Assembly: GCA_922989275.2 (NCBI GenBank)
Contig: OV277864.1
Location: forward strand, 4,650,001-4,714,000
Direction of reading: 5' to 3'
DNA from: Gari tellinella
Taxonomy: Eukaryota > Mollusca > Bivalvia > Cardiida > Psammobiidae
Length of the DNA stretch: 64,000 nucleotides
Shown here: one piece after another, positions 8,163 through 50,616 of the stretch
Position numbering within the stretch: the first letter of the stretch is position 1
Layout: every line of letters begins with the position of its first letter
Translations under genes and position numbers: made by a program
The notes under the pieces: generated by a model
The model's input: the letters and a program-made list of their open reading frames with translations, nothing else
Databases searched by the model: none
What the model was told of the DNA's origin: nothing

Positions 8163-8377
8163 TTAACCCCTGCACTGCCTTACCCCCAAGTCCAGTAGTT
8201 ATTCGCAAACAGTTTGGATCATGATCAGACGCCGCGTTATGCGGCGTCTGATCAGGATCCAAACTGTTTGACACTCGTGTCAATATTTCTTAAGTCAAAA
8301 TACCGAAAAATTGATTTTTAGAAATAGAAGCAGATGACAATTGTTTAAATTTGATGACGTCATGGCAGTGAAGGGGG
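8163..8377 (+). mobile_element. Family B MITE carrying a CRE-type palindrome
   Basis: TTAACCCCTGCACTGCC opens it at 8163 and GGCAGTGAAGGGG closes it, an inverted repeat typical of the family. The hairpin at 8206-8270 has GTTTGGATC arms and a GCGTTATGC apex. TGACGTCA lies just inside the right end. TTAA plus CCC ends resemble piggyBac. The right TTAA is not intact. Confidence 0.7.
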
Positions 8378-9061
8378 GAAGGGTGTATTGATGCCACTTA
8401 AAGAACGTTCATTAAACTCATGAGATCATCATTTCCCTGTCAAGAAGGGGATTGCCAGAGCCACAGGTTTTCGGCGCGTAAGCTATGACCCCCCCCCCCC
8501 CCCTCGCTGCTACCCCCCATAAATCTTTCAAAACGAGTCAAAATACATCCATATGTTCAACAAACATCCTTAACAAATGTTTCAAGAAGTTTCAAGAAGT
8601 TTCAAAAAAAATAATTTTTTTTCGTATCATGTATGTATACAATGAGAAGGTGGATGTGTATTCAGGGCCATCAACTTCCCAACCTTGTCATTTTGTCATT
8701 TTTGGGCCGATTTTGACAAATGATGGCTAATTATTTACATTTAACAGTTCTGTTCAAAGAAAGTTAGCTCACAGCCCAAGCAAGACACGAGCACAAGTGA
8801 AGAAATAAAAAGTTCGATAGGCACCTTATATCGGAATCCTTCTGTCACCTTAATTTTTGGACTTGTTCGTCAGTCATTCACTGATTCAGCGATTAACAAG
8901 TGCATTTGCGACCATGCATTACACCATGGTACGGGTAATTAATAGAAAATGAAATATATAATAAATACCTTTTGAATTATCGGTAAATGAGCATTTTCTG
9001 TTACGAAATAAATTTCTAGATAACTTTCGTTTAGTTTCGGTTGACAAACGGATATGATATC
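8378..9061. repeat. Spacer with a 15-C homopolymer
   Basis: A run of 15 C lies at 8489-8503. The 81-codon frame crossing it (8485-8730) begins in the homopolymer and is not credible. Nothing else recognised. Confidence 0.4.
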
Positions 9062-9294
9062 ATTGGTCGTATTCGAATCATTCAATTTGTTGTCAACGAA
9101 AACTAGGCGGAGCAAATGCTCGAAGATTTACTGATGACAACGTTTTTGACCCGACTCGAATCGAAATTGTGGTCAACAATTTGATGGTTTGACAACATTT
9201 TGTCAACGGAAAACATCAAGTGGTGATTCGAATAGATCCTGTTGACAACACGTCCAACTAACGTGGTAGTTGTCCTGATTCGAATACGACCAAT
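9062..9294. mobile_element. Small element with 19-bp perfect inverted ends (233 bp)
   Basis: ATTGGTCGTATTCGAATCA at 9062-9080 is the exact reverse complement of 9276-9294. The interior repeats TTGTCAAC/GTTGACAA motifs in both orientations, so most of it folds back on itself. No clear target duplication was seen and the superfamily is unknown. No other copy in the window. Confidence 0.65.
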
Positions 9295-9857
9295 TGAGGC
9301 GATTGACTTTTGCGTCATTTCCTGCTTTGAAGCTGGTTCTCGGGTTCGCTAGAATGATAATAGTTTGACTGGGCAACCAGTCGTTTGTTTGGGAAAATTT
9401 TGCGTGACAGATGGTTTCCGAATAAGGGGTCTCCCCACCCTTCGAGTCCCCATGCGCGTATTCGCCGATTGCTTTGAATTTTTTACCAATTATCGTCAAA
9501 GAAAACTGTTTGCTGTAAACAATGAGCCATCATCTGTCCAGATCGTCCAAGATTTGACAAAATGACAGGGTTGTGAACTTGAGGGTTGCTTCTGCAAGGC
9601 GCTTTTTCATGGCAGCCTTTACTATTTTACTTATAAATTAGCAAAAAAAAAATTTTTTTTAATTTCACGAAACTTCAGGAAATGTTCTTTTATGATGATT
9701 ATTGAATGTATGGATAGATTTTAGGGTATTTTATCCACGTTTGGTCGTGGTGGAGGGGGGTTATAGCAGCTAGGGGTAGTGTCATAGCCAACGGGCCGAA
9801 TGCCTATGGCCAGAGCCTGTAATATTACTGTTTCCACGCGAAGCTGTTTTGGTTTTA
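9295..9857. other. Spacer, nothing recognised
   Basis: Short frames of 66 and 98 codons overlap on opposite strands with no motif. No named repeat. Confidence 0.4.
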
Positions 9858-9872
9858 TGACATTCACGAGTA

Positions 9873-10114
9873 CAGTGAAATACGTTATTATTTGCTATGT
9901 ATACGCAAACGAAACGCAAACGCATTACAATTAACTAAAGAAAAAGACACCAATCTTACAATTCTGAATTCTAAATTTAATCTGAATGGCAAACAGTTTA
10001 AAGTCTGATCCGACGCTGGGTTTACCCGCGTCTGATTTTTCTCCAAACTGTTTGCAATGAAAATTAAAAATTTAGTATAAACGCGTTTATCGGGAAAGAA
10101 AAACGTCCTCATTG
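9873..10114 (+). mobile_element. Divergent family A copy (A2), unit 1
   Basis: Starts TA|CAGTGAAATACGTTATT and ends GTCCTCATTG|TA. The hairpin arms read GTTTAAAGTCTGATCCGACG, with weaker pairing than standard A. Differences from the consensus are spread along it, so it is older. Confidence 0.7.
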
Positions 10115-10612
10115 TACATGTAAGGAGCTAGGGCTCGACTGAATATTGATCTTGACTGGCCTAAAGCTGTCATTTGGAATGTCAGTTTGAATTAGAAAAA
10201 CTTGTATTAGGTTGGGTAATGCTTTTAGGTTTAGCTACATTAAATATATTTCCAAAACGGAGTATAAATGATTCAGTATAGAATATACAACAGTGACTTT
10301 ATAGTATCTACATCAATAATATCCGTAAAATCAAGTTTACAAGTACATGTAGACTCTAAGGCTTTGTAACTAATTGCATTATATAAAGTGTATGTTCCAC
10401 TAATCTACTCATAATATTTCATATGAACAATGTATGTTTGTTATTACATCTAGTTAATTTCTTATTAATTAGGAATGGTTTTAAAACTAAATTGCCAAAT
10501 GACAATATTACATGCCATAACTGTCCTCTAGGAGCTCTCCGATCTTAGTCTGTCTGCTCTGTTTGCATAGGTGAAAAAACAACACAAATAAAGAATGTGT
10601 TAACAGAAGATA

Positions 10613-10858
10613 CAGTGGAGAATGTGTTATTCTTTCCCAATAAACGCGTTTACGCTAAAACTATTATTTGTAGTGCAAACAGTTTGGAGCCAGATCAGAC
10701 GCCGGGTAACCCGGCGTCTGACCAGGCTCCAAACTGTTTGCCACCAAGATAAACATGAAATATCAGAATTGTCCAAAAGTTGTTCTTTTCTACGTTTTAG
10801 CTCGTCGCGTTTGCGCACGTTTGCGTTTAAACGGGAAAGAATAACAGATTATCCACTG
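10613..10858 (-). mobile_element. Family A MITE, unit 1
   Basis: Intact TA-flanked ends; hairpin with GTTTGGAGCCAGATCAG and a GGGTAACCC apex. Its right TA joins directly to the start of tandem unit 2. Confidence 0.85.
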
Positions 10859-10875
10859 TATGACATTCACGAGTA

Positions 10876-11117
10876 CAGTGAAATACGTTATTATTTGCTA
10901 TTTATACGCAAACAAAACTCAAACGCATTACAATTAACTAAAGAAAATGACACCAATCTTACAATTCTGAATTCTAAATTTAATCTGAATGGCAAACAGT
11001 TTAAAGTCTGATCCGACGCTGGGTTTACACGCGTCTGATTTTTCTCCAAACTGTTTGCAATGAAAATTAAAAATTTAGTATAAACGCGTTTATCGGGAAA
11101 GAAAAACGTCCTCATTG
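10876..11117 (+). mobile_element. Divergent family A copy (A2), unit 2
   Basis: Duplicate of 9873-10114 with a few substitutions, for example GGGTTTACACG at the apex instead of GGGTTTACCCG. Confidence 0.7.
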
Positions 11118-11610
11118 TAAGGAGCTAGGGCTCGACTGAATATTGATCTTGACTGGCCTGAAGCTGTCATTTGGAATGTCAGTTTGAATTAGAAAAACTT
11201 GTATTAGGTTGGGTAATGCTTTTAGGTTTAGCTACATTAAATATATTTCCAAAACGGAGTATAAATGATTCCGTATAGAATATACAACAGTGACTTTATA
11301 GTATCAACATCAATAATATCCGTAAAATCAAGTTTACAAGTACATGTAGACTCTAAGGCTTTGTAACTAATTGCATTATATAAAGTGTATGTTCCACTAA
11401 TCTACTCATAATAGTTCATATGAACAATGTATGTTTGTTATTACATCTAGTTAATTTCTCATTAATTAGGAATGGTTTTAAAACTAAATTGCCAAATGAC
11501 AATATTACATGCCATAACTGTCCTCTAGGAGCTCTCCGATCTTAGTCTGTCTGCTCTGTTTGCATAGGTGAAAAAAACAACACAAATAAAGAATGTGTTA
11601 ACAGAAGATA

Positions 11611-11857
11611 CAGTGGAGAATGTGTTATTCTTTCCCAATAAACGCGTTTACGCTAAAAACTATTATTTGCAGTGCAAACAGTTTGGAGCCAGATCAGACG
11701 CCGGGTAACCCGGCGTCTGATCAGGCTCCAAACTGTTTGCCACCAAGATAAACAAGAATTATCAGAATTGTCCAAAAGTTGTTCTTTTCTACGTTTTAGT
11801 GCTTTGCGTTTGCGTACGTTTGCGTTTAAAAGGGAAAGAATAACAGATTATCCACTG
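11611..11857 (-). mobile_element. Family A MITE, unit 2
   Basis: Duplicate of 10613-10858 with a few differences (AACAAGAATTATC for AACATGAAATATC). TA on both sides. Unique DNA follows. Confidence 0.85.
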
Positions 11858-12123
11858 TATGCCATGCTTGCTTTGACATTTGTATCTATTCAATTGGGAT
11901 TTCACTAATATAAAATGCTGATGAGCAAACCAAAAGAGTATGGGGTTGTTATTTTGTAAGCATACACTTAAACTTACCGAACCTGATAACCTACTATACC
12001 ACTATTTTAGACTTAAGGTAACGCGGTACGGAACTCCTACACTGCATTACGTTTGTATGAGTATTGATGCATCACAAACTAATTGAATTAACCCTATCAG
12101 CACGAAATTAATCATGAGGTATT

Positions 12124-12325: not shown

Positions 12326-12644
12326 ACACTTAGCCATTGGCTTACATGGATACAGTGGAGAATGTGTTATTCTTTCCCAATAAACGCGTTTACGCTAAAA
12401 CTATTATTTGCAGTGCAAACAGTTTGGAGCCAGATCAGACACCGGGTAACCCGGCGTCTGATCAGGCTCCCAACTGTTAGCCACCAATATAAACATGAAA
12501 TATCAGAATTGTCCAAAAGTTGTTCTTTTCTACGTTTTAGCGCTTTGCGTTTGCGTACGTTTGCGTTTAAACGGGAAAGAATAACAGATTATCCACTGTA
12601 TGAGGCGAAAGGGTTCAACACTTAGCCATTGGCTTACATGGATA
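12309..12644 (+). repeat. 44-bp direct repeat flanking a family A copy
   Basis: TGAGGCAAAAGGGTT...ACATGGATA at 12309-12352 recurs at 12601-12644 with two differences, exactly on either side of the A element at 12353-12598. A TA target duplication would be 2 bp, so this needs another explanation, most simply a local tandem duplication ending at the A right end. Confidence 0.85.
12353..12598 (-). mobile_element. Family A MITE inside the 44-bp repeat
   Basis: TA-flanked ends intact. Hairpin has minor changes (CAGACACCGGG; CTCCCAACTGTTAG). Confidence 0.85.
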
Positions 12645-12652
12645 CGATGTTA

Positions 12653-12899
12653 CAGTAGAGAATGTGATATTCTTTCCCGTTTAAACGCAAACGAAACACA
12701 AACGCATGGCAATAAAACGTAACAAATGACAACTTGTTGACAATTCCGACTATTTATTTTAATCTGAGTGGCAATCAGTTTGGAGCCTGGTCAGACTCCG
12801 GGTTATTCGGCGTCTGATCGGGATCTAAACTGTTTGCAAGTGAAATACTAGTTTTAGCGTAAACGCGTTTATTGGGAAAGAATAACGTTTTCTCCCCTG
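12653..12899 (+). mobile_element. Family A MITE, diverged
   Basis: TA|CAGTAGAGAATGTGATATT to TTTTCTCCCCTG|TA, beginning 6 bp after the 44-bp repeat. Hairpin GGAGCCTGGTCAGACTCCGGG with an ATCGGGATC right arm is partly mismatched. Confidence 0.8.
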
Positions 12900-13370: not shown

Positions 13371-13615
13371 CAGTGGAGAATCTGTTATTCTTTCCCGATA
13401 AACGTGTTTACGCTAAAACTATTTTTTCTTTTACAAACAGTTTGGAGCCAGATCAGACGCCGGGTAATCCGGCGTCTGATCAGGCTCCAAACTGTTTGCC
13501 ACCAAGATAAACATGAAATATCAGAATTGTCCACAAGTTGTTCTTTTCTACGTTTAGCGCTTTGCGTTTGCGTACGTTTGCGTTTGAACGGGAAAGAATA
13601 ACAGATTCTCCACTG
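13371..13615 (-). mobile_element. Family A MITE
   Basis: TA-flanked CAGTGGAGAATCTG to GATTCTCCACTG, full hairpin with apex GGGTAATCC. Confidence 0.85.
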
Positions 13616-13818: not shown

Positions 13819-14065
13819 ACAGTGGAGAATCTGTTATTCTTTCCCGTTTAAACGCAAACCTACGCAAACGCAAAGCGCTAAAACGTAGAAAAGAACAACT
13901 GTTGGACAATTCTGATATTTCATGTTTGTCTTGGTGGCAAACAGTTTGGAGCCTGGTCAGACGCCGGGTTACCCGGCGTCTGATCTGGCTCCAAACTGTT
14001 TGCACTGCAAATAATAGTTTTAGCGTAAACGCGTTAATTGGGAAAGAATAACACATTCTCCTCTG
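13819..14065 (+). mobile_element. Family A MITE
   Basis: Left TA at 13817-13818; right end TTCTCCTCTG followed by AA instead of TA. Hairpin intact. Confidence 0.82.
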
Positions 14066-14552: not shown

Positions 14553-15033
14553 ACTCGTTCAACACTGAGTAACTCTTGCGGGCTATAAGTTTCCCTTGTG
14601 GCTCTTTAGTTACCAAAAACTCGAGTCAGTTCACTTGGACTTCTGAGTAGTGAAAATAAATACTGGTCTAGAATAGAAAACAGTGTAGAACCAGATCAGA
14701 GGGTTCCTACAGGAGCCTTCTGATCTGAGTTTGCACTATTTGCAAATGAACTGAATATATTCTAAACAGGTACAGTGGAGAATGTGTTATTCTTTCCCAA
14801 TAATCGCTTACGCTAAAACTATTATTTGCAGTGCAAACAGTTTGGAGCCTGATCAGACGCCGGGTAACCCTGCGTCTGATCAGGCTCCAAACTGTTAGCC
14901 ACCAATATAAACATGAAATATCAGAATTGTCCAAAAGTTGTTCTTTTCTACGTTTTAGCGCTTTGCGTTTGCGTACGTTTGCGTTTAAACGGGAAAGAAT
15001 AACAGATTATCCACTGTATATGGTGTTGAAAGA
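14553..15033 (+). mobile_element. Family F MITE (TTAA-type) interrupted by family A
   Basis: TTAA at 14549-14552, then CTCGTTCAACACTGAG; the other end is GTGTTGAAAGAG followed by TTAT at 15034. Before interruption the element was about 235 bp. Its hairpin (14678-14742) has the GAGGGTTCC variant: AACAGTGTAGAACCAGATCA against TGATCTGAG...GCACTATTTG. The A copy at 14773 sits in a TA near its right end. Copy F2 lies at 15169. Confidence 0.65.
14773..15016 (-). mobile_element. Family A MITE nested in family F
   Basis: TA-flanked ends; hairpin GGAGCCTGATCAG with GGGTAACCC changed to GGGTAACCCTGC. Confidence 0.85.
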
Positions 15034-15168: not shown

Positions 15169-15404
15169 ACTCTTTGAGCACCATTGACCTGTTTAAAATA
15201 TACTTATTATACTTGCAAACAGTGAACACCCAGATCAGCGGACTCCTAAAGGAACCATCTGATCAGGGTCTACATTGTTTGCTAATTTAGACCAGTATGT
15301 ATGTAACTACCTATAATTCCAAGTAAACTGTTTCGTGTTTTAGTAACAAAAATGATCCACAAGAGAACATGATTACTCACAAGAGTTACTTAGTGTTGAA
15401 AAAG
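15169..15404 (-). mobile_element. Family F MITE, inverted copy
   Basis: TTAA at 15165-15168; the left end ACTCTTTGAGCACC and the right end GAGTTACTTAGTGTTGAA match the F1 ends in the opposite orientation. Hairpin around 15216-15281: CAAACAGTGAACACCCAGAT against ATCAGGGTCTACATTGTTTG. Confidence 0.6.
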
Positions 15405-15902: not shown

Positions 15903-16119
15903 CAGGATAATCTGTTATTCTTTCGCGTTTAAACGAAACGAAACGCAAACGCAAAGTACTAAAACGTAGAAAAGAACAACTTTTGGACAATTCTGATATT
16001 TCATGTTTATCTTGGTGGCAAACAGTTTGGAGTCTGATCTGGCTCTAAACTGTTTGCACTGCAAATAATAGTTTTAGCGTAAACGCGTTTATTGGGAAAG
16101 AATAACACATTCTCCAATG
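15903..16119 (+). mobile_element. Family A MITE with hairpin tip deleted
   Basis: TA at 15901-15902 and 16120-16121. Left end CAGGATAATCTGTTATTC. The centre is only GTTTGGAGTCTGATCTGGCTC: the tip between two CTGATC repeats is gone, leaving a 14-bp stem. Confidence 0.8.
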
Positions 16120-16433: not shown

Positions 16434-16766
16434 TAGTTGCAAACAGGTTGGGCCCTAATCACACGCCGCTTTACGCGGTGTTATCAGAATCCAAACTGTT
16501 TAAAACTCATTTAAATATGTCTTAAGTCACAATTCCCAACTTTAATATTTAAGAAATAAAATCGGACGACAACTATTTAAAATTGATGACGTCACAGCAG
16601 TGAAGAGGTTAGTCTTCAAATAATGAATTGACAATGAGGCGACATGACAAATCTACGACAGTCCCTAATCTGCTAACAAACCACTGGAGTAAATCTATCA
16701 TTCTTCCTTAGCCTCTTTACTGTCACATTAAACACACAAGGTCATCAAATATCATTTGCATGGTGT

Positions 16767-17169: not shown

Positions 17170-17382
17170 TGTTATTCTTTCCCAATAAACGCGTTTACGC
17201 TAAAACTATTATTTGCAGTGCAAACAGTTTGGAACCAGATCAGACGCCGGATAACCCGGCGTCTGATCAGGACCCAAACTGTTTGCCACCAAGATAAACA
17301 TGAAATATGAGAATTGTCCAAAAGCGCTTTGCGTTTGCGTACATTTGCGTTTAAACGGGAAAGAATAACAGATTCTCCACTG
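17170..17382 (-). mobile_element. Family A MITE, left end lost
   Basis: Begins in the TIR at GTTATTCTTTCCC without CAGTGGAGAA; right end GATTCTCCACTG|TA intact. It also lacks the usual TTGTTCTTTTCTACG stretch between hairpin and right end. Confidence 0.8.
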
Positions 17383-17877: not shown

Positions 17878-18120
17878 CAGTGGAGACTCTGTTATTCATT
17901 CCCGTTTAAACGCAAACGTACGCAAACGCAAATCACTAAAACGTAGAAAAGAACAACTTTTGGACAATTCTGATAATTCTTGTTTATCTTGGTGGCAAAC
18001 AGTTTGGAGCCTGATCAGACGCCGGGTAACCCGGCGTCTGATCTGGCTCCAAACTGTTTGCACTGCAAATAATAGTTTTAGCGTAAACGCGTTTATTGGG
18101 AAAGAATAGATTCTCCACTG
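17878..18120 (+). mobile_element. Family A MITE
   Basis: TA|CAGTGGAGACTCTG on the left; the right end TTCTCCACTG is followed by AA. Hairpin intact with apex GGGTAACCC. Confidence 0.85.
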
Positions 18121-19638: not shown

Positions 19639-19877
19639 CCCTGTCACTCTCAATGACGCCTTAAAGCTCGTTTGCAAACTGTATGGTTCCTGATCAGACG
19701 ACGCGTGCTGCAGCGTTTGGTCAGGCTCCAAACTGTTTGACACTCTCATCGATATTAATTAAGTTATAAAATCTTAAATCTAACTTTGAAACGTGCTTGC
19801 AGAAAACAATATTGAAGCAGACGACAATATGGCGGAGAAGGGGTAAAAATATCCCGAATAATTTGATAATAAAAGAG
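19639..19877 (+). mobile_element. Family B MITE, complete with TTAA on both sides
   Basis: TTAA at 19635-19638 and 19878-19881. Left CCCTGTCACTCTCAATG, right TTTGATAATAAAAGAG. The hairpin (19674-19739) is diverged, with GTATGGTTCC against GGCTCCAAACTG. This copy shows that the full B right end extends beyond GAAGGGGTAAAAATATCCCG to a second TTAA. Confidence 0.75.
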
Positions 19878-26005: not shown

Positions 26006-26251
26006 CAGTGGAGAATCTGTTATTCTTTCCCAATAAACGCGTTTACTCTAAAACTATTATTTCTGTTGCAAACAGTTTGGAGCCAGATCAGACGCCGGGT
26101 AACCCGGCGTCTGATCAGGCTACAAACTATTTGCCACCAAGATAAACATGAATTATCAGAATTGTCCAAAAGTTGTTCTTTTCTACGTTTTAGTGCTTTG
26201 CGTTTGCGTACGTTTGCGTTTAAACGGGAAAGAATAACAGATTATCCACTG
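26006..26251 (-). mobile_element. Family A MITE
   Basis: TA-flanked, full hairpin (one arm reads GGCTACAAACTATTTG). Confidence 0.85.
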
Positions 26252-26363: not shown

Positions 26364-26605
26364 CAGTAGAGAATACGTTATTCTTTCCCAATTAACGCGT
26401 TTACGCTTTATTTATATTCCTTTGCAAACGGTTTAGAGCCATATCAGACGCCGGGTAACCCAGCGTCTGATCAGGCTTTAAACTGTTTGCAACCCAAATA
26501 AAAAAGATAGTGAGAAATTTCAAAACCTTTCAAATTATTGTCTACGTTTTAGTTCTTTGCGTTCAGTTTGCATTTAAACGAGAAAGAACAGCGCCTTCTA
26601 TACTG
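26364..26605 (-). mobile_element. Family A MITE, diverged
   Basis: TA|CAGTAGAGAATACGTTATTC to GCCTTCTATACTG|TA. Hairpin GGTTTAGAGCCATATCAG against TCTGATCAGGCTTTAAACTG. Confidence 0.75.
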
Positions 26606-27338: not shown

Positions 27339-27340
27339 TA

Positions 27341-27586
27341 CAGTGGATAATCTGTTATTCTTTCCCAATAAACGCGTTTACGCTAAAACTATTATTTGCA
27401 GTGCAAACAGTTTGGAGCCAGATCAGACGCCGGGTAACCCGGCGTCTGATCAGGCTCCAAACTGTTTGCCACCAAGATAAACATGAATTATCAGAATTGT
27501 TCAAAAGTTGTACATTTCTACGTTTTAGTGTTTTGCGTTTGCGTACGTTTGCGTTTAAACGGGAAAGAATAACAGATTATCCACTG
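27341..27586 (-). mobile_element. Family A MITE, first of three in a duplication array
   Basis: TA|CAGTGGATAATCTG to GATTATCCACTG|TA; hairpin intact. Confidence 0.85.
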
Positions 27587-27631
27587 TAGAATATTATAAG
27601 CGCTTATTGCTACACAGAACATTCGCGCATA

Positions 27632-28023
27632 CAGTGAATACTACATAGCCTTTTCCCAATCGAAGCAGTTACGCTAAAAAGCTAATATCTATAGCAAACA
27701 GTTTGGAGCAGAGTAGACGCCGGTCACAGAAGCAATATGGTCTACATCCTAGCAGATGATAGCTTAAAGCAGCCTGAAAGTTTAATGCCAATCTGCTTTT
27801 TAAGTGATCACCTGTTCTCAATACTAGACAAAGGCAGTTAGGGTAATGGCTTTATCATTTTTAAACATTTCTGACGGTTAATTTTAATATGAGTGACAAA
27901 CGGTTGAAGCCCGTTCAGGCTCTGGGAAATCCGGCGTCTGATCTGGATCCAAACTGTTTGCACCGAATTAATAGTTTTAAGGGATAACGCGATTTTAGGG
28001 AAAGGATTAAGTTTTCTCCACTG
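27632..28023. mobile_element. Composite A-ended element with module 2 inside, unit 1
   Basis: TA|CAGTGAATACTACATAG at left and TTTTCTCCACTG|TA at right. Both ends are the CCCAATAAACGCG-type A terminus, facing each other. In between are half of a module 1 hairpin, a module 2 piece (GATAGCTTAAAGCAGCCTG ... TCACCTGTTCTCAATACTAG) and a second, complete module 1 hairpin region (27896-27963). Confidence 0.6.
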
Positions 28024-28403: not shown

Positions 28404-28649
28404 CAGTGGAGAAACTGTTATTCTTTCCCAATAAACGCGTTTACGCTAAAACTATTATTTCTTTTGCAAACAGTTTGGAGCCAGATCAGACGCCGGGTGA
28501 CCCGGTGTCTGATTAGGCTCCAAACTGTTTGCCACCAAGATAAACATGAAGTATCAGAATTGTCCAAAAGTTGCACTTTTCTACGTTTTAGTGTTTTGCG
28601 TTTGCGTTTCGTTTCGTTTAAACGGGAAAGAATAACAGATTCTCCACTG
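28404..28649 (-). mobile_element. Family A MITE, second in array
   Basis: TA-flanked ends; apex GGGTGACCC replaces GGGTAACCC. It carries GCGTTTCGTTTCGTTTAAACG, like 29513, in place of the GTACGTTTGCG version. Confidence 0.85.
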
Positions 28650-29512: not shown

Positions 29513-29758
29513 CAGTGGAGAAACTGTTATTCTTTCCCAAAAAACGAGTTTACGCTAAAACTATTATTTCTATTGCAAACAGTTTGGAGCCAGATCAGAC
29601 GCCGGGTGACCCGGCGTCTGATCAGGCTCCGAACTGTTTGCCACCAATATAAACATGAATTATCAGAATTGTCCAAAAGTTGCACCTTTCTACGTTTTAG
29701 TATTTTGCGTTTGCGTTTCGTTTCGTTTAAACGGGAAAGAACAACAGATTCTCCACTG
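29513..29758 (-). mobile_element. Family A MITE, third in array
   Basis: TA-flanked ends; apex GGGTGACCC shared with 28404, supporting common origin by duplication. Confidence 0.85.
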
Positions 29759-30190: not shown

Positions 30191-30436
30191 CAGTGGAGAA
30201 TGTGTTATTCTTTCCCAATAAACGCGTTTACGCTAAAACTATTATTTTCAGTGCAAACAGTTTGGAGCCAGATCAGACGCCGGGTAACCCGGCGTCTGAT
30301 CAGGCTTCAAACTGTTTGCCACCAAGATAAACATGAAATATCAGAATTGTCTAAAAGTTGTTCTTTTCTACGTTTTAGTGCTTTGCGTTTGCGTACGTTT
30401 GCGTTTAAACGGAAAAGAATAACAGATTCTCCACTG
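30191..30436 (-). mobile_element. Family A MITE
   Basis: TA-flanked, full length; hairpin intact except CAGGCTTCAAACTG. Confidence 0.85.
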
Positions 30437-30532: not shown

Positions 30533-30775
30533 CTCATTATCCCCTGAAACTTCCAATGGACAGTTCCAATTTGCAATAAAGGCTGGTCCATTTTAGACTA
30601 TTTAGGGTTATTTTTTGTAATAAATTTCAAAAAACCAAACAGTGAAGTCCCTGATCAGAGGGCTCCTGCAGGAGCCCTCTGATCAGGGACATCACTGTTT
30701 GCATAGGACAAATGTACTCTTCAAAGGTACACATTTGTTAAAGGACGCATATATGCGTCACTAGGGCTCAATGAG
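30533..30775 (+). mobile_element. Family D MITE, complete (243 bp)
   Basis: TTAA at 30529-30532 and 30776-30779. Ends CTCATTATCCCC and GGGCTCAATGAG. The hairpin at 30636-30701 is CAAACAGTGAAGTCCCTGAT...GAGGGCTCC, TGCA apex, with one mismatch between arms. Smaller inverted repeats (AAATGTAC/GTACACATTT; GCATATATGC) flank it on the right. Confidence 0.8.
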
Positions 30776-31102: not shown

Positions 31103-31598
31103 CCTCGGCGGAGAAAACATTATTATTTCCCAATAAAAACGCGTTTACGCTAAAACTATTATTTCTATAGCCAATGTTTTGGAGCTAGACCAGACGCAGG
31201 GTAATCCTGCATCTGAACAGGCTCAAAACTGTTTGCCACTCATACTAAAATGAATCGCTAGAAATGTCTAAGAATGAAATTTGCTACAGTGGAGAATCTG
31301 TTATTCTTTCCCGTTTAAACGCAAACGTACGCAAACGCAAAGCGCTTAAACGTAGAAAAGAACAACTTTTGGACAATTCTGATATTTCATATTTATCTTG
31401 GTGGCAAACAGTTTGGAGCCTGATCAGACGCCGGGTTACCCGGCGTCTGATCTGGCTCCAACCTGTTTGCACTGCAAATAATAGTTTCAGCGTAAACGCG
31501 TTTATTGGGAAAGAATAACACATGCTCCACTGTATATTATACTGCAATGCGTTTGCGTTTCGTTTGCGTTTAAACCGGAAAAAAAGTCTTCTCTAATG
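31103..31598 (-). mobile_element. Old family A copy hosting a younger one
   Basis: TA then CCTCGGCGGAGAAAACATT; hairpin GTTTTGGAGCTAGACCAGAC against TGAACAGGCTCAAAACTG; right part CAATGCGTTTGCGTTTCG and TCTTCTCTAATG|TA after the insert. Removing 31287-31532 and one TA restores one A-length element. Confidence 0.75.
31287..31532 (+). mobile_element. Family A MITE nested in an older A copy
   Basis: TA-flanked; hairpin intact. Opposite orientation to its host. Confidence 0.87.
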
Positions 31599-31824: not shown

Positions 31825-32070
31825 CAGTGGAGAATCTGTTATTCTTTCCCGTTTAAACGCGAACGTACGCAAACGCAAAGCGCTAAAACGTAGAAGAGAA
31901 CAACTTTGGGACAATTCTGATATTTCCTGTTTATCTTGGTGGCAAACAGTTTAGAGCCTGATCAGACGCCGGGTTACCCGGCGTATGATCTGGCTCCAAA
32001 CTGATTGCATAGGAAATAATAGTTTTAGCGTAAACGCGTTTATTGGGAAAAAATAACGTTTTCTCCACTG
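31825..32070 (+). mobile_element. Family A MITE
   Basis: TA-flanked; hairpin with a few changes (GTTTAGAGCC, GGCGTATGATC, CTGATTGC). Confidence 0.85.
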
Positions 32071-32419: not shown

Positions 32420-32600
32420 ATCTTACATTTGCAGTTTTTTTGCGAATCGATAGTTCGGCTGTTTGACAAATCTGAGATATTTCCATAGGCCTACTAACGA
32501 GCCACTGGAGTAGCTCCATCAGTCTTCCTTATCCACTTTTCCGTCACGTTAATGAACCAAGTTCATCAAATATCCTTTCCGTGGTTTTCCCATCTCCTTA
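32420..32600. repeat. Relative of 16640-16766 without the hAT-like insert
   Basis: CTAACGAGCCACTGGAGTAG, CATCAGTCTTCCTTATCC and TCATCAAATATCC line up with 16670-16760. At the place where 16767-16985 is inserted, this copy reads on through GTGGTTTTCCC. The preceding 32073-32419 is unassigned. Confidence 0.6.
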
Positions 32601-32635
32601 ATCATTATCATGGTAAACGCGACTTGGCTAAAATT

Positions 32636-32808
32636 TGCAAACAGTTTCGATCCTGATCAGATGCCGCGTAACGCGGCGTCTGATCTGGATCAAAACTGTT
32701 TGCCACTCATATTAAACATTTCTTTAGCTAACAAAGCATAAAAAACTGATCATAAGCTTGTTCGCAGACGATATATTTGCAGCAGACGACTTTTCATCAT
32801 GATAAGGG
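32636..32808 (+). mobile_element. Family B MITE, left end unclear
   Basis: Hairpin 32638-32702 with GTTTCGATCCTGATCAGATG against GCGTCTGATCTGGATC; then CACTCATATTAAAC, GCAGACGATATATTTGCAGC and GATAAGGG|TTAA at 32809-32812. Confidence 0.65.
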
Positions 32809-33190
32809 TTAATCCTTACAGTGTTGAAACATGAACCCACACTTTTAGAAAATGACCTGTTAGTTTTGATACTTGAAGTATATATTAAGGTCAAAATTGA
32901 CTTAAAAAAACATTGAAGGCGCTTTTCGAAAACCATCTAATACGTTGTTATTCTGAATGCACATGATGGATATACTGGTTTCTCAGAGTAAGGATAATTA
33001 TTATAAAGGAAGCTGAGATATTGATTTCCTGTTGAATGAACCACAAACAAACGTGAGAACCAGGAAAGCAAATTGAATGCAACACCACAAAAATGAATAA
33101 CATATTACCATTCGGTAACTAACACATATTCTTTCAATTATCTTTTAACCCCATACGATGTTTCTAATTTGAAGTCAGTTGATCACGTAA

Positions 33191-33437
33191 CCCTTTTACT
33201 CTCAATTAGACTTTAAAGCGCGTTTGAAAACAGTTGGGTCCTGATCAGACGCCGAGTAACGCGGCGTCTTTTCAGGACCCAAACTGTTTGACACTCTTAT
33301 AGATATTTATTAAGTTATTCAATCTCAAATCTAACTTTGACACTTTGACACGTGTCTTGCAGAGAACACTAATGAGGCAGGCGACAATAAAGCACTGAAT
33401 AGGTAAAAATATCCCGAATAATTTGATCATGAAAGGG
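33191..33437 (+). mobile_element. Family B MITE
   Basis: GTAA|CCCTTTTACTCTCAATTAG to GATCATGAAAGGG|TTGA, so both TTAA sites carry one change. Hairpin about 33229-33292 has the GTTGGGTCC variant with matching GGACCCAAACTG. Confidence 0.7.
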
Positions 33438-34140: not shown

Positions 34141-34359
34141 TCCACTTACGTCCAGTGGATTCTTCCATGTTTTATATTGGATTAGTCAATTTTTTATCAA
34201 AGGGATGGCTGGTCAAAATTTTCATTTCATTTTATTTTATTTTTAAATTCCTATCAGCAAACAGTGTAGACTCTGTTCAGGCGCCGCATAATGCGGCGTC
34301 TGATCAGAGTCTACACTGTTTGCCGATGTCCCATATATGGGATCGTGGACACAAATAGG
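34141..34359 (+). mobile_element. Family C MITE, copy 1
   Basis: TTAA at 34137-34140; ends TCCACTTACGTCCAG and GTGGACACAAATAGG with TTAT after it. Hairpin 34258-34322 has the GTGTAGACTC variant with apex GCATAATGC. The 109-codon frame covering it has no motif and is a by-product. Module 2 remnant follows at 34365-34440. Confidence 0.75.
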
Positions 34360-34440: not shown

Positions 34441-34942
34441 AATAATTTAATTAACAATAAATAATAAAGACTTTATTTAACGAGAGAACCCATTTGGTAA
34501 AGACCAATCTTCCATGAGGCCCTCCACAAAAGCAACCATTTGTCTACAAAACGAAGAAACATGCTTATAGGGTAACGGTTTAAAGATAAAACATTCGGCA
34601 ACATAAACTCATTAATCATTAGGTCTAAAGATATAAAATGCAGTGTTACGCCCTGACTGCATGGGTTTTAATTTCCCTAAAGATTGTGCATTGCCTTTTT
34701 ATTATTCTGATCGATTGTGCAAGCTTTTTCTGTTCTTTTTCTAATCTAAGTTTTTAGTGAATTAATTCGCTAGTGTGTGTGTTACTATCAAAAGAGTTCA
34801 TTAACTCAATAAAGGTTCGAGGTAATCTGACTGAAATGAATGCTTCTTTTACAGGCGCTGTGATTTATAGGTCATTCCCTACAACAAAGCAACAATAATG
34901 TGTAAACCGGTGAGAAGTGTTAAACGAAACACAAACAAAGTA
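34441..34942. other. Spacer, nothing recognised
   Basis: AT-rich, no repeat ends or frames. Confidence 0.35.
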
Positions 34943-35283
34943 CAGCGCCCCTCCCTACAACGACTCCCTCCTTACAACGACCATTGCCGCTGTTCCCTAA
35001 ACGAGACATGTATGTCCAACTCTTTCACTGCTGCAATATCGTCTGCCTTAAATTGTCGTCTGCTGCTTTTCTCAAAGTTACATTTTCGATATTTTGACAG
35101 AAAATACCTAAAGACGAGTGACAAACAGCTTGCATCCAGATCAGACGCCGCGTTATGCGGCGTCTGATCAGGATTCAAGCTGTTTGTAAATGTTAGCCAA
35201 TTTTCCTCCCTATAACGACTCCCTCCGAACAACGCACATACCTTTTGTCTCCCATTGGGTGTCGTTGTAAAAAGGGAGCGCTG
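34943..35283 (+). mobile_element. Family E MITE with family-B-like interior, copy 1
   Basis: Ends CAGCGCCCCTCCCTACAACG and TTGTAAAAAGGGAGCGCTG; TA on the left, CA on the right. Interior TTCACTGCTGCAATATCGTC, TTGTCGTCTGCTGC, CAAAGTTACATTTTCG and GACGAGTGACAAACAG run in the order seen in reversed family B. Hairpin 35122-35186 has the CAGCTTGAATCC variant. A clean GTTCGGAG target (reverse complement at 35225-35232) shows the empty site for the 5011 insertion. Confidence 0.75.
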
Positions 35284-35344
35284 CAATTCTATAAAAGAAA
35301 TGGCAAGTTCTTGAAATTATCAACAAGTATTCGAATCTGAATGA

Positions 35345-35662
35345 ATCAGTTTTGAGCCTGATCAGACGCCGTTCGTACAGTGGAGAATCTGTTATTCTTT
35401 CCCAATAAACGCGTTTACGCTAAAACTATCATTTGCAGTGCAAACAGTTTGGAACCAGATCAGACGCCGGGTAACCCGGTGTCTGATCAGGCTCCAAACT
35501 GTTTGCCACCAAGATAAACATGAAATATCAGAATTGTCTAAAAATTGTTCTTTTCTACGTTTTAGCGCTTTGCGTTTGCGTACGTTTGCGTTTAAACGGG
35601 AAAGAATAACAGATTCTCCACTGTATCACTTGGCATTCAATCAGACTCCAAATTGTTAGCAA
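35345..35662. mobile_element. Module 1 hairpin split at its apex by family A
   Basis: CAGTTTTGAGCCTGATCAGA at 35347 and ATCAGACTCCAAATTGTTAG at 35640 are the two arms of one diverged hairpin. The A copy at 35378 lies between them at a TA. Confidence 0.65.
35378..35623 (-). mobile_element. Family A MITE inside a hairpin apex
   Basis: TA-flanked ends; GTTTGGAACCAGATCAG and GGTGTCTGATCAGG arms. Confidence 0.85.
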
Positions 35663-37799: not shown

Positions 37800-37983
37800 A
37801 ATAAACACATCACCAGTTGGCAGTGCGCAACAGAGTGTTGCATTTAGCTCTCGACGTTTTTGGCGGAAACAACCGATCAGACTCGCGCCAAGGCGCTCGT
37901 CAGATCGGCTATTTCCGCCAAAAACGTCTCGAGCTAAATACATCACTCTGTATCGCACTGTCAACTGGTAATGTTTATAGAGA
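37800..37983. repeat. Long foldback, arms of about 85-90 bp
   Basis: TCGACGTTTTTGGCGGAAAC at 37851 mirrors TTTCCGCCAAAAACGTCTCG at 37912; pairing extends from CATCACCAGTTGGCAGTGCG to CGCACTGTCAACTGGTAATG, with the centre AA at 37890-37891. Arms are roughly 85% alike. It is unrelated to modules 1 and 2 and occurs once. Frames of 62-75 codons on both strands mirror each other because of the palindrome. Confidence 0.8.
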
Positions 37984-38145: not shown

Positions 38146-38392
38146 CAGTAGAGAAAACGTTACTCATTCCCGTTTTAACGTAAACGAAACGCAAACGCAT
38201 TGTAATAAAATGAAGAAAATGACAATATTTCGATAATTCTAAATGTTGACTTTATCCTTGACGGCAAACAGTTTGGAGCCGGATCAGACGTCGGGTTACT
38301 CGTCGTCTGATCTGGCTCCAAACTGTTTGGAAAGGAAATATTAGTTTGATCGTAAACGCGTTTATTGGGAAAGAATAAAATGTTCTCAACTG
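38146..38392 (+). mobile_element. Family A MITE, diverged
   Basis: TA|CAGTAGAGAAAACGTTACTC to ATGTTCTCAACTG|TA; hairpin apex TCGGGTTACTCGTCG. Confidence 0.8.
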
Positions 38393-40696: not shown

Positions 40697-41054
40697 CAGT
40701 GTTCCCTCCCAACAACGACTCCCTCCTTACAACGACCCTTGCCACAGTTCCCGAAACAGGACTATTGTCTAACGCTTTTACTACTGCAATATTGTCTGTA
40801 ATTTGTCGTCTGCTGTTGTTTTTCAAAGTTACATATAAGTGGCGATTTTTATAGAATACAATATACATATAATGACGAGTGACAAACAGCTTGAATCCAG
40901 ATCAGACGCCGCGTTACGCGTCGTCTGATGTGGATTTAAGCTGTTTGCAAATGTAAGCCACTCCTTAATTTCCCCTCTCTTTAACGACTCCCTCCGAACA
41001 ACACACACAATCTGTGTCTCCCGTTGGGCGTCGTTGTAGAGAGATATAGCACTG
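40697..41054 (+). mobile_element. Family E MITE, copy 2, TA on both sides (358 bp)
   Basis: TA at 40695-40696 and 41055-41056. Ends CAGTGTTCCCTCCCAACAAC and GTTGTAGAGAGATATAGCACTG. Hairpin 40883-40947 (CAGCTTGAATCCAGATCAG, GCGTTACGC). B-like interior as in 34943. Contains the empty GTTCGGAG site. Confidence 0.8.
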
Positions 41055-42470: not shown

Positions 42471-42586
42471 TATTAGTAGTATCTTTATTTCCATCATATT
42501 TGATGAGCAAATACAAATAATGAACAATATAGAAACAAAGATAAATAAATCTAGAAAGGAACTTGATAAAGAAAATAAGGAATTAA

Positions 42587-42806
42587 CCCATTCACGCCCA
42601 GTAGATTGTTCCAAGCTTATATATTGTATTAGTCCATTTTTATGTAAGGGTTGTATGGTCTAAAGTTTCATCTTCATTTTGTTTTATATTGAAATTCCTA
42701 TCAGCAAACAGTATAGACTCAGATCATACGCCGCATAATGCGGCGTCTAATCAGAGTCTACACTGTTTGCCTACGTCTAATATATGGGATCGTGGGCACA
42801 AATGGG
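42587..42806 (+). mobile_element. Family C MITE, complete (220 bp), in the LINE 3' region
   Basis: TTAA at 42583-42586 and 42807-42810; ends CCCATTCACGCCCAG and GTGGGCACAAATGGG. The hairpin (42705-42769) is CAAACAGTATAGACTCAGAT against TCTAATCAGAGTCTACACTG, apex GCATAATGC. TTAA|CCC...GGG|TTAA is the piggyBac pattern. Confidence 0.85.
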
Positions 42807-43103
42807 TTAAGCAAACATTGAAAAGAGGAAAAATGATGATAATACAAAAGACACACATGTCAGCTAATCCTGTATTAAGCGACCATTAAACAGAAGATGC
42901 GCGGTCTAAAACAGAATACAGTTGACCGCCGAGTGCTGGACATTAAAGATGCATAGAGTTCCAACTGGGACTCCCTACATCAGTTCTATCCCTCACCAAG
43001 CAGCCAGCGGCCACCAGAGATGTCCAAGGTACATCCAATAGTGGTCAATAATAACAGATTAGCTGAATACAACACTATAATATACAACACAGAAATGCTA
43101 CTT

Positions 43104-46517: not shown

Positions 46518-46518
46518 A

Positions 46519-46898
46519 ATGTTTACTTACAAAACAGAGACTTCTATGTCTTCAATGCATTAACACTTTTATGGTCCTAAATGTATGCCTAAGATAAAAT
46601 TACTGCGTTTTCAAAAAACCCTTCAAAGAAGGCAGATTTGAAGCCCGATTTGAAGACGCTTCCCTTTCCCAATATACACGTTAGTATAAACGGTTATTTC
46701 CTTTTCAAAATATTTTGAGCCAGATCAAACGTCGGGTAACCCAGTGTTCGATCAGGCTCCAAGCTGTTTTACATTAAGACAAAAAACCGTGAGAACTTTT
46801 AAAAACTGTCATATTCTATGATTTATTAAATTTAATATTACTGTTATGTTGTTTGGAATTTAGTTTAGGCGGATACGAATAAAGTATTATCCGCTGTT
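46519..46898 (-). mobile_element. Diverged family A copy with flank shared with 41211
   Basis: GTTTACTTAC, CTTCAATGCATTAACAC and GTCCTAAATGTATGCC match 41211-41290. A-like part from about 46640: TTCCCTTTCCCAATATACAC, TTTTGAGCCAGATCAAACGT against GTTCGATCAGGCTCC, and AAGTATTATCCGCTG. Confidence 0.6.
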
Positions 46899-47144: not shown

Positions 47145-47145
47145 G

Positions 47146-47597
47146 TAGTGGAGAGAACGATAGTCTTTCATAATACAGTGGAGAATCTGTTATTCTTTCC
47201 CAATAAACGCGTTTACGCTAAAACTGTTATTCGCAGTGCAAACAGTTTGGAGCCAGATCAGGCTCCAAACTGTTTGCCACCAAGATAAACATGAAATATC
47301 AGAATTGTCCAAAAATTGTTCTTTTCTACGTTTTAGCGCTTTGCGTTTGCGTACGTTTGCGTTTAAACGGGAAAGAATAACAGACTCTCCACTGTATACG
47401 CGTTTTTACTAAACAATTATTTTAATCGCAAAAAGTTTAGAGTCAGATGAGACGCCGGTACCTGATCAGATTTATTCAGTTTGTCTCACATATTAAACGA
47501 AATCGACAATTATGATGAAAACAAAGAGTTTTTATTGTTCTTTTTCGTGTTAGTTTAGTTTCGATTAAAAAACGGGAACTATTAACGTCTTCCAGTA
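47146..47597 (-). mobile_element. Old family A copy hosting a younger one
   Basis: TAGTGGAGAGAACGATAGTC then TTTCATAA|TA is the A left end. After the insert it resumes TACGCGTTTTTACTAAAC, AAAAGTTTAGAGTCAGATGA and GATTAAAAAACGGG ... CTTCCAGTA. Removing 47176-47394 gives one A-sized unit. Confidence 0.7.
47176..47394 (-). mobile_element. Family A MITE nested in older A; hairpin tip deleted
   Basis: TA-flanked, ends intact. Hairpin reads GTTTGGAGCCAGATCAGGCTC: the tip between two GATCAG repeats is removed. Confidence 0.87.
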
Positions 47598-48782: not shown

Positions 48783-49007
48783 ACCCTTTCAGTATCAAAT
48801 TATTTGGGAGATTTTTACCCCCTCACCGCTTTATTGTCTGTTTCAGTATTATTGTCTGTAAGACACGTTCCAAAGCTACATTTAAGGTTGTATGACTTAA
48901 TGAATATCGACAAGAGTGTCAAACAGTTTGGGTCCTGATCAGACGCCGCTGATCAGGACCCAAACTGTTTGCAAACTCGTTGTATAGCGTCATTGAAAGT
49001 GAAAGGG
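48783..49007 (-). mobile_element. Family B MITE with shortened hairpin
   Basis: Left CCCTTTCAGTATC...TTTTTACCCCCTCACCGC, right CATTGAAAGTGAAAGGG|TTTAA. The hairpin 48920-48971 has GTTTGGGTCC arms that pair perfectly but a reduced apex (GATCAGACGCCGCTGATC). Confidence 0.72.
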
Positions 49008-49109
49008 TTTAACAAAACTAAACGCACACATGATGCCGATAAATTTCGACAACAAATAGCGGTTTGAAAAGTCTAACATATGTTCTGTTTCTCTTTTTTT
49101 CCATGGTTA

Positions 49110-49351
49110 CAGTGGAGAATATGTTATTCTTTCCCGTTTAAACGCAAACGTACGCAAACGCAAATCACTAAAACGTAGAACAACTTTTGGACAATTCTGA
49201 TATTTCATGGTTTATCTTGGTGGCAAACAGGTTGGAGCCTGATCAGACGCCGGGTTACCCGGCGTCTGATCTGGCTCCAAACTGTTTGCACTGCAAATAA
49301 TAGTTTTAGCGTAAACGAGTTTATTGGGAAAGAATAACACATTCTCCACTG
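49110..49351 (+). mobile_element. Family A MITE
   Basis: TA-flanked; a small deletion reads GTAGAACAACTTTTGG. Hairpin near intact (AACAGGTTGG). Immediately after it, 49354-49384 repeats a lone right arm GTGTCTGATTTGGCTCCAAA. Confidence 0.85.
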
Positions 49352-49431
49352 TACTTGGTGTCTGATTTGGCTCCAAACTGTTTGAAAACATGAGAAAATA
49401 TTAAACATAACGTTTTTTTCCATTCCTTATA

Positions 49432-49663
49432 CAGTGGAGATGTTATATTTTCCCGTTCAAACGCAAACGCTTTGCAATAAAATGTAGAAAATGGCAACTT
49501 GTAGACAGTTCTGATTATATTTTTAATTTTATTGGAAAACAATTTGGAGCCTTATCAGAAGCCATTTTACCATGCGTCTGAACTGGCTCCAAATAGTTGG
49601 CAATAGAAATAGTATTTTGAGCGAAAAGGCATTTATTGGGAAAGAATAACGTCCTCTCTACTT
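49432..49663 (+). mobile_element. Family A MITE, diverged
   Basis: TA|CAGTGGAGATGTTATATTTT to CGTCCTCTCTACTT|TA; hairpin GGAGCCTTATCAGAAGCC against GCGTCTGAACTGGCTCC. Confidence 0.75.
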
Positions 49664-49820
49664 TACACGGTAATTGACTGCATTAAAATGTTTTTAATGT
49701 AATGGTACATAGAGAGATATTAAAAACAAGTCTAATCCGTATCCATGTGTAACATTGTGTTATTGTGTAATACTAAAAGGAGTATTCTTTTTCTTATCCC
49801 TAGGTCTAGACCATTGTTAA

Positions 49821-50024
49821 CCCTTATCGTGCTGAATTGGCGTCTGCTAAAAATATATAGTCTGCGAAATAATACAAAAATAATTTTGATCTTCGTAAAC
49901 TTGGAAAATATTAAAATGAATGGCAAAACGCTTGGATTCAGATCAGACGTCGCGTTACGCGGTGTCTGATCTGGATTCAAGTTGTTTGCTAATATTAGTT
50001 AAAGAGCGCTAAGCACAATAAGGG
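49821..50024 (-). mobile_element. Family B-type MITE, complete (204 bp)
   Basis: TTAA at 49817-49820 and 50025-50028; ends CCCTTATCGTGCT and AGCACAATAAGGG (one mismatch). Hairpin 49923-49988: CGCTTGGATTCAGATCAGAC against GTCTGATCTGGATTCAAG. Confidence 0.8.
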
Positions 50025-50082
50025 TTAATGGAATCATATTGCAAAAGATCTATCCGGATTATTGACAAACGTCACCAATGTA

Positions 50083-50328
50083 CAGTGGAGAATGTGTTAT
50101 TCTTTCCCAATATACGCGTTTACGCTAAAACTATTATTTGCAGTGCAAACAGTTTGGAGCCAGATCAGACGCCGGGTAACCTGGCGTCTGATCAGGCCCC
50201 TAACTTTTTGCCACCAAGATAAACATGAAATATCAGAATTGTCCGAAAGTTGTTCTTTTCTACGTTTTAGCGCTTTGTGTTTGTGTACGTTTGCGTTTAA
50301 ACGGGAAAGAATAACAGGTTATCCACTG
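50083..50328 (-). mobile_element. Family A MITE
   Basis: TA-flanked; right arm altered (CAGGCCCCTAACTTTTTG), otherwise full. Confidence 0.85.
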
Positions 50329-50379
50329 TAAGTGGTAGTCTTAGTGACTTATCCTATACAGTAGATTATAACCCTTGAA

Positions 50380-50616
50380 CCCATTTATACCTAGTGTCCA
50401 ATAAAATGGACATTGACAAACAGTGCAGACCCTGATAAGACACCGCGTTACGCGGTGTCTTATCAGGGTCTGCACTGTTTCTATATTATATGAAAATATT
50501 GCGTTATGGACAAACAGTGCAGCGTCTTAAGATCACTCTTGTATATCTACAATAAGATCTTTCAGCAATTTAACTAGTATAAGGAGAGTGCATTGCAATA
50601 TCCAGGAATAAATTGG
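50380..50616 (+). mobile_element. TTAA-type MITE with a perfect 30-bp-arm hairpin
   Basis: TGAA|CCCATTTATACCTAG at left, GGAATAAATTGG|TTAA at right (50617-50620). Hairpin 50417-50480: CAAACAGTGCAGACCCTGAT, AAGACACCGCG, TTA, then its exact complement. A second partial arm ACAAACAGTGCAGCGTCTTA follows at 50510. Ends resemble family C. Confidence 0.7.

Follow-up and report, generated by a model that had tools for sequence, protein, structure and literature searches.

A covarying hairpin in TTAA- and TA-type non-autonomous transposable elements of the bivalve Gari tellinella

Hairpins of about 65 nt that begin with CAAACAG and end with CTGTTTG are repeated throughout the genome of the bivalve Gari tellinella. 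We examined them in a 64,000-nt stretch (the window; positions 4,650,001–4,714,000 of contig OV277864.1, here C9, in an assembly of 1.598 Gb and 80 contigs), in 20 loci of 10 kb at round coordinates on contigs C1–C10 (L001–L020), and genome-wide. In a large clan of non-autonomous DNA transposons, the miniature inverted-repeat transposable elements (MITEs), no part of the core is better conserved than this hairpin, and its two arms differ in a complementary manner from family to family. We infer, with a probability of roughly 0.5, that it is a fold-dependent DNA module selected in transposing source copies. The evidence suggests that the folded shape matters while an element is jumping and not afterwards.

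All eight hairpins named in a preliminary description of the window lie where it placed them and are 65 or 66 nt long. The window holds 27 exact CAAACAG-N-CTGTTTG palindromes, and the exact pattern with 45–60 nt between its ends occurs 336,710 times genome-wide, compared with 750 occurrences of a backward-read control pattern. Relaxed criteria (at most two mismatches per end, at most 12 mispairs, a length of 63–66 nt, and removal of the second hairpin class introduced below) yield 106 class-I hairpins, 42 in the window and 64 in L001–L020; the latter count extrapolates to ~511,000 in the genome. Nine hairpins (six class-I and one class-II from the window, and one class-I each from L011 and L023) were folded as DNA and gave z values of −8.5 to −16.4 relative to shuffled sequences. 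As single-stranded DNA, the eight class-I hairpins fold at −32 to −39 kcal/mol and the class-II hairpin at −22.5 kcal/mol, with apex loops of 3–5 nt. Searches for the hairpin in two other collections, viral contigs and the genome contigs of bacteria and archaea, returned 0 matches in each, and the open-access literature contains, among the matches listed, no report of such a hairpin core.

We delimited nine families. In seven of these (B, C, D, F, G, K, and M), the element starts with TTAA and continues with CCCTT, CCCAT, or a similar sequence, as does one piggyBac-family element of the genome; we treat the seven as putative piggyBac-type MITEs. The remaining two have TA-type inverted ends (TA-CAGTGGAGAATCTG... 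in A; TACAGTG.../...CTACAACGACGCCC in E), and are putative Tc1/mariner-type MITEs. Family A, whose MITEs measure ~250 bp, have 26-bp ends, and occupy TA target sites, is the commonest by copies, and 46,068 of its copies match exact flank anchors around the hairpin genome-wide. The family-specific arms and apices agree with the preliminary description, but single copies are usually mispaired: among 78 listed 65-nt hairpins, three have no mispair, 58 have 1–4, and 17 have 5–14. Full pairing is a property of the family consensi, and even there family A keeps a T.T pair. The hairpin is also off-centre in most delimited elements (for example, ~40 nt from one end in B and 118 nt in A), and copies with deleted stems occur (e.g. 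16018–16057 and 47238–47277). Single-linkage clustering joined 169 of 233 hairpins.

Complementary changes between hairpin families

To compare the arms across families we aligned 50 class-I copies of 65 nt each (alignment A1). This alignment leaves out family D (66 nt), family F (register shift), other copies that are not 65 nt long, and most A copies (seven A-type copies were kept). Twelve rows come from L021–L040, where they were picked for unusual arms among exact-end hairpins, and the counts include three singletons (50417, L014:7382, and L005:4521) taken for their good pairing. Pairing is intact in 91.9% of cells, with mismatches commonest at pairs 17 and 31. Both sides are changed in 103 cells, compared with 28.9 ± 3.9 after shuffling and 9–25 when the partner is slid. 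Tree simulations with independent arms and site-specific rates produce 18.1 ± 6.9 such cells with a maximum of 41, and none of 400 reaches 103.

Family consensi (six rows for A, four of the 15 B rows for B2, four for C, and 12 for E) are less open to choice than A1. Relative to B, the consensi of A, B2, C, and E have both arms changed at 11 pairs and one arm changed at a single pair, which bears out the earlier claim that the opposite arm carries the complementary change. All 11 changes are Watson–Crick, no G.T pair occurs in any of the five consensi, and four of the 11 are double transversions (T-A to G-C twice, C-G to G-C, and T-A to A-T). The lone one-arm change is the T.T at pair 17 of A. 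Across positions 8–17, base identity varies and pairing is kept.

The covariation result is repeated by a second hairpin class of 72 nt (CTTAAAGCAGGCTG..., also CTTAAAGCAGG...). Class II is present in L001–L020 and at window positions 50971–51042, 62272–62343, and 4457–4517; it resides in elements with TTAA-type ends, TA-type ends (TACAGTAGAACCTCTCTATTACGACC...), and ends in CAGGGCTGCCAT, and it includes a sub-type (CTTAAAGCAATGTGAAAGTGAAACAG...) with matched inner changes. In 37 copies, each admitted with at least 22 of 36 positions paired, a threshold that favours paired copies, both sides are changed in 57 cells, compared with 18.6 ± 4.5 after shuffling and 9–27 with the partner slid. Independent-arm tree simulations give 17.5 ± 6.0, and 0 of 400 reach 57. 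At pair 12 of class II, the arms appear independent.

These comparisons bear directly on the possibility that pairing is not maintained at all, each family being one burst from a founder that was a palindrome by chance and shared ancestry explaining the rest. Such a history would fit the single arm sequence shared by most copies within a family and the finding that, once inserted, copies decay as much in the flanks as in the arms (see below). It leaves the complementary differences between related families unexplained, however, and the independent-arm simulations never attained the observed counts in either class (0/400 per class); we consider it highly improbable.

Fate of inserted family A copies

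The 59 family A copies that span the hairpin diverge from their consensus by 5.7% in the arms and 13.0% in the flanks. Among 37 young copies, private changes number 30 in 2,242 sites of the arms and 74 in 4,723 sites of the flanks (p = 0.53), and because these rates are equal, inserted copies decay alike in arms and flanks. For the same reason, we think it unlikely that the arms owe their conservation to homogenisation among copies. Variants common to at least four young copies occur at 0 of 62 arm sites versus 18 of 129 flank sites (p = 0.0009), and those common to at least three copies at two arm versus 20 flank sites (p = 0.014). In 22 old copies, variants common to at least four copies fall at nine arm versus 44 flank sites (p = 0.0055). 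All of these p values are optimistic, since flank variants may be linked.

To assess compensation within the family, we took the first 100 entries in the list of flank-anchored A copies, all of which lie on C1. One arm is changed at 52 arm pairs and both arms at none (0/52 compensated). The T.T mispair at pair 17 is kept in 99 of these 100 copies and is seen in old and young A copies alike. The view that the paired structure is maintained holds among families, where the consensi, the A1 simulation, and class II agree, and fails for inserted copies. Independent divergence of the arms within a family, which the preliminary description took as evidence against maintained pairing, is accordingly found in inserted copies and not between families.

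Complementary arms could also arise without selection if one arm were copied from the other by template switching, mainly at transposition or gap repair, so that founders start out paired. The apex extensions at L006_8564 and L005_6390 resemble template switches, the four double transversions relative to B involve no G.T intermediate, and 163 copies carry one compensated pair; all of these would fit. Such correction should nonetheless have left compensated pairs among the 52 changed ones and should have repaired the T.T at pair 17 in old and young copies, though pair 17 would be crossed by a tract that extends from the apex as far as pairs 1–16. Nor would correction alone cause shared flank variants to exceed shared arm variants. 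We regard this explanation as rather unlikely. Template-switch correction, which had been proposed earlier, finds no support as an efficient process in inserted copies, given the absence of compensation, the equal private rates, and the retained T.T; one arm may still be corrected during transposition, or slowly in place.

Element families, their ends, and their relationships

TTAA is found at both ends in the family alignments, for example at L054:764–977, in the D copies of L010 and L012, and at window positions 42583–42810; it is degenerate in some old copies and in M. In the first of these, a G-type MITE is preserved complete over 214 bp, and its 65-nt hairpin pairs throughout. The genome contains 86 matches to PF13843 (piggyBac-type transposase), and among eight such genes whose flanks were fetched, both ends were identified for one (C10:20901945). 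This piggyBac-family gene sits between TTAA+CCCTTAGACCGCCACT and CCCATAGCCCGCCACC+TTAA. Its end is alike by eye at 14 of 16 positions to the G-type MITE end CCCTTAGCCTGCCACT, a comparison of one gene with one MITE type, and the element ends resemble G-type MITEs at L005 and L054. The same flank check gave one unpaired match to the fuzzy end pattern at L048. We rejected the idea that the hairpin is a relic of the autonomous partner, as no palindrome lies within 1 kb on either side of the C10 transposase domain.

Joined-flank searches for sites lacking the hairpin (at most 30% mismatches) gave no candidate matches for A, C, and E, three for B, five for D, and one for F. The best B match (L009:5263), apparently hairpin-less, was rejected as it retains one arm. 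Stem deletions of 27–35 nt of the hairpin are seen in 2 of 61 A copies, but the inverted ends confound the flank control, and we draw no conclusion from them on extrusion.

The families had been described as unrelated, but B, E, F, G, K, and M share a tail of ~100 bp adjoining the hairpin. One-flank profiles of B, E, G, K, and M match other families (F included) at a near-equal offset from the hairpin. In the window and L001–L020, the B-tail profile gives 35 matches at an E-value below 1e-3, a count that includes its 11 seed copies, versus none on reversed sequence; a six-family tail profile gives 59, with none at an E-value below 1e-3 and two below 0.05 on reversed sequence. Identity between families is 53% in the tail versus 80% in the hairpin (235 pairs). 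Because 53% barely exceeds what an aligner returns on unrelated DNA, the case for the tail rests on the profiles. Families C and D have the hairpin in common, with no common tail detectable by flank profiles.

Family E connects the two target types. The B-tail profile matches 10 of 13 E left flanks, five of them at an E-value below 1e-3. Inside the TA ends of E lies a degenerate CTAACGCTTTTACTGC start, followed by the tail and then the hairpin. In some E copies the hairpin is followed by CAAATGTAAGCCAAGTC, a sequence matching that of the K copy at 32638 (CAAATTTTAGCCAAGTC); agreement is weaker in the remaining four K rows. Judged from sequence, the simplest reading is that in E the body of a TTAA-type MITE would lie nested within a TA-type one, the whole having amplified as a TA element. 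The module had been proposed to have moved between TA and TTAA targets, and it does occur in both; since the TTAA-type body lies within TA ends, no special mobility of the hairpin is required for E. In the alignment, the inner TACCCCTTCACCGCC of B resembles the M end, and element ends may have been replaced more than once. GAGTG precedes the hairpin in 8 of 18 old A copies.

Table 1. Hairpins and hairpin-bearing elements in the window (window coordinates).
Feature	Position	Strand	Remarks
Class-I hairpin, family M (TTAA-type MITE, related to B)	8206..8270		Element ~8163-8376, right end degenerate
Class-I hairpin, family D, 66 nt, apex CTCCTGCAGGAG	30636..30701		Element TTAACTCATT..., 30529-30779
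Class-I hairpin, family K	32638..32702		Element TTAATCATTATCATG..., 32598-32812
Class-I hairpin, family C (TGTAGACTC, apex GCATAATGC)	34258..34322		
Family E element, TA-type ends TACAGCGCCCCTCCC...GGGAGCGCTGCA	34941..35285	+	Hairpin 35122-35186; hairpin and left body form the TTAA-type core; end coordinates hand-counted from alignment
Class-I hairpin, family E (TA-type ends)	40883..40947		
Family C element TTAACCCATTCACGCCCA...	42583..42810		Hairpin 42705-42769
Family K element TTAACCCTTATCGTGCT...	49817..50028		Hairpin 49924-49988
Class-I hairpin TGCAGACCC	50417..50481		31/32 paired, outermost pair C-C; TTAA-like ends degenerate
Family B hairpin, GGGTCC arms	48920..48971		Lacks apex and one inner arm
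Class-I hairpin, family B, old copy	19675..19739		
Class-I hairpin, family B, 64 nt	33227..33290		
Class-I hairpin, M-like, 63 nt, old	16440..16502		
Class-I hairpin, D-like type (D2)	14677..14742		Another at 15216-15281
Class-I hairpin, D-like, 12 mispairs	54587..54652		
Class-I hairpin of family A element	5671..5735	+	TA target site, 26-bp ends CAGTGGAGAATCTGTTATTCTTTCCC; element ~5551-5800
Family A hairpin	10676..10740	-	
Family A hairpin	11675..11739	-	
Family A hairpin	12416..12480	-	
Family A hairpin (old)	12772..12836	+	
Family A hairpin	13434..13498	-	
Family A hairpin	13938..14002	+	
Family A hairpin	14834..14898	-	
Family A hairpin	17221..17285	-	
Family A hairpin	17996..18060	+	
Family A hairpin	26069..26133	-	
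Family A hairpin (old)	26425..26489	-	
Family A hairpin	27404..27468	-	
Family A hairpin	28467..28531	-	
Family A hairpin	29576..29640	-	
Family A hairpin	30254..30318	-	
Family A hairpin	31405..31469	+	
Family A hairpin	31943..32007	+	
Family A hairpin	35441..35505	-	
Family A hairpin (old)	38265..38329	+	
Family A hairpin	49224..49288	+	
Family A hairpin	50146..50210	-	
Family A hairpin	51451..51515	-	
Family A hairpin (old)	53349..53413	-	
Family A hairpin	54217..54281	+	
Old A-like hairpin, 10 mispairs	9990..10054	+	Near-copy 10993-11057
Old A-like hairpin	27897..27960	+	Near-copy 28958-29021
Family A hairpin, inner stem deleted	16018..16057	+	
Family A hairpin, inner stem deleted	47238..47277	-	
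Class-II hairpin, 72 nt, CTTGAAACAGG...	50971..51042		
Class-II hairpin	62272..62343		
Class-II hairpin, apex shortened	4457..4517		

Several other features were seen alongside those in Table 1. A 69-nt hairpin at L023:309–377 has CAAACAG ends, different arms, and element ends GGGGCCCGTTTTACTAAAC..., and possibly represents a further class-I end type. A-type hairpins with apex GGTTAAACC in place of GGGTTACCC, paired on both sides (C1:5593319, C1:59037362, and C12:68042856), perhaps form a small subfamily. Apex extensions, consisting of symmetric additions or short tip duplications as expected from slippage or template switching, occur at L006_8564, L005_6390, L020_5015, and C1:408282. Blocks containing A and old A-like hairpins are 97–98% alike over ~450–770 bp at ~9855–11860 and 91–96% alike over 700–1200 bp at ~27330–29760, and the similarity of neighbouring blocks suggests local duplications. 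Further multi-copy long palindromes (TTTCAAAGTTAAAACGTGGC..., CCAAGCATTTGATTGGTCAGATTTGAGCC..., AACCCTATGGTG...), which may be more hairpin modules, are found at L002:5187–5251, L006:2920–2992, L006:5732–5774, and L009_3152, at L007_1882 and L011_9907, and at L006_3648, L006_3876, and window positions 55092–55188. Two palindromes in the window, at 37807–37974 (168 bp) and 61585–61727 (143 bp), are perhaps MITEs consisting entirely of inverted repeat; the latter has a relative at L016_1993. Positions 43104–46526 hold a long interspersed nuclear element reading frame, open over 1,140 amino acids, whose named relatives are a Mercenaria mercenaria sequence at 42% identity and one of Mytilus edulis at 30%; its further matches are unnamed records and three from metagenome-assembled genomes labelled Sedimenticola.

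A proposed fold-dependent module and its alternatives

In the mechanism we propose, pairing would be selected while the element propagates, and nothing would maintain it in inserted copies. The fold would act in the DNA itself, either extruded as a cruciform or formed as a hairpin on one strand, because the consensi are free of G.T pairs and four of the 11 compensated changes are double transversions. It would aid a step independent of transposase type, such as uniting both ends of a 200–400 bp element or surviving gap repair. One DNA step could serve such differing ends if the hairpin were a hinge that lets the ends meet, or if a host factor read its structure. Shared variants, which mirror the transposing lineages, are scarcer in arms than in flanks. 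The hairpin would have reached the TA target type in E via nesting and co-amplification. More tentatively, both classes (65 and 72 nt), which differ in sequence and each occur in more than one kind of MITE, might together constitute a transposase-independent hairpin module, selected for foldability during propagation as a cruciform hinge or a site read by its structure, spread between MITE types by nesting, and forming a major unit of the genome; we hold this wider reading to be possible but doubtful.

Several observations weigh against selection on the fold. In young A copies, variants common to at least four copies affect 5 of 52 sites in the terminal inverted repeats; the old copies do share arm variants (9 of 62 sites at the same threshold), and a few linked events behind the flank variants may overstate the arm–flank contrast. 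Both arms are changed at 21 pairs in the 59 A copies (12.7 expected), seven of these pairs are complementary (~4.2 expected; all seven in old copies), and there may be a small excess of compensation in A copies. Genome-wide, 163 A-type copies carry a compensated G12-C54 to A-T change and 2,757 the left change alone; assuming equal frequencies for the right and left changes, independence would yield 163 at ~46,600 unchanged copies (2,757 squared over 163). An autonomous partner with both ends was found for just one of eight genes, pairwise tail matches between families span E-values from 4e-7 to 0.2, and a nested origin of family A, for which GAGTG is the only indication, would be a guess. Mispairs in four overlapping samples favour G.T over A.C (94:65, 55:41, 42:35, and 20:14). 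Finally, the constraint involves more than pairing, since both arms conserve the sequence blocks CAAACAG and GATCAGACGCC.

This last point raises the alternative that is hardest to exclude, a symmetric double-stranded site at which a dimeric protein reads both arms, so that half-sites change together and no fold is needed. Consensi without G.T pairs and mismatches that peak at pairs 17 and 31 would also be expected from such a site. Positions 8–17, however, change identity yet remain paired, and class II behaves alike with a different sequence of similar length. Half-sites of 32 bp without a spacer would, moreover, be unusually long. On balance, we judge a protein site unlikely.

The lean of single-copy mispairs towards G.T, seen in the raw counts of all four samples, keeps alive a role in RNA, in which the element transcript would fold, for example as a small-RNA precursor, and RNA pairing would be selected. 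The hairpin lengths, 65–72 nt, are those of such precursors. The five consensi speak against it, with no G.T pair and with double transversions at four of the 11 changes, as do apex loops of merely 3–5 nt; the window gives no Rfam match at gathering thresholds, and no tRNA. An RNA hairpin is in our estimation very unlikely.

Selection on a DNA fold can be set beside several known systems. Nearest in behaviour are bacterial REPINs, reportedly the subject of work by Bertels and Rainey in 2011. They are short, high-copy hairpin elements in which spacer length and hairpin-forming capacity are described as appearing critical and compensatory changes on either side as common, and the hairpin there is the mobile unit, tied to RAYT transposases (PMC3116915). 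The hairpin here is instead embedded in eukaryotic elements with inverted ends and TTAA or TA sites; it does not move as a unit of its own, which sets these elements apart from REPINs. In the original account of the zebrafish Angel MITEs, the whole element is said to fold. Intrastrand pairing has been proposed to aid Angel amplification (PMC12628747), a likeness to our proposal. Here, by contrast, the hairpin is internal, covarying, and common to several families.

Helitron/Helentron elements (pearl) are not known to have inverted ends or a target-site duplication, and we rejected membership in this group for the elements described here, in which inverted ends with TTAA or TA are present. Pearl-family elements of bivalves are similarly modular and non-autonomous, and for DTC84 a palindrome conserved close to repeat junctions is reported; pearl elements carry internal tandem repeats (PMC5139131), whereas none were seen in our alignments. 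Nearest in history is MER6, a TA-type MITE that gained the highly conserved V domain via a nested short interspersed nuclear element (SINE) insertion, and the module spread along with it (PMC6887750). That module is described as SINE-derived and sequence-conserved, in contrast to a covarying palindrome in at least two end types. The palindromic repeats of Pithovirus provide another high-copy palindrome system (PMC10664404).

MITEs are commonly held to need their ends alone; if our reading is true, an internal DNA structure would add to their success. The elements also illustrate how nesting can carry a module from a TTAA to a TA transposon or the reverse, and ~0.3–0.5 million copies in one genome make the claim testable by counts and by transposition assays.

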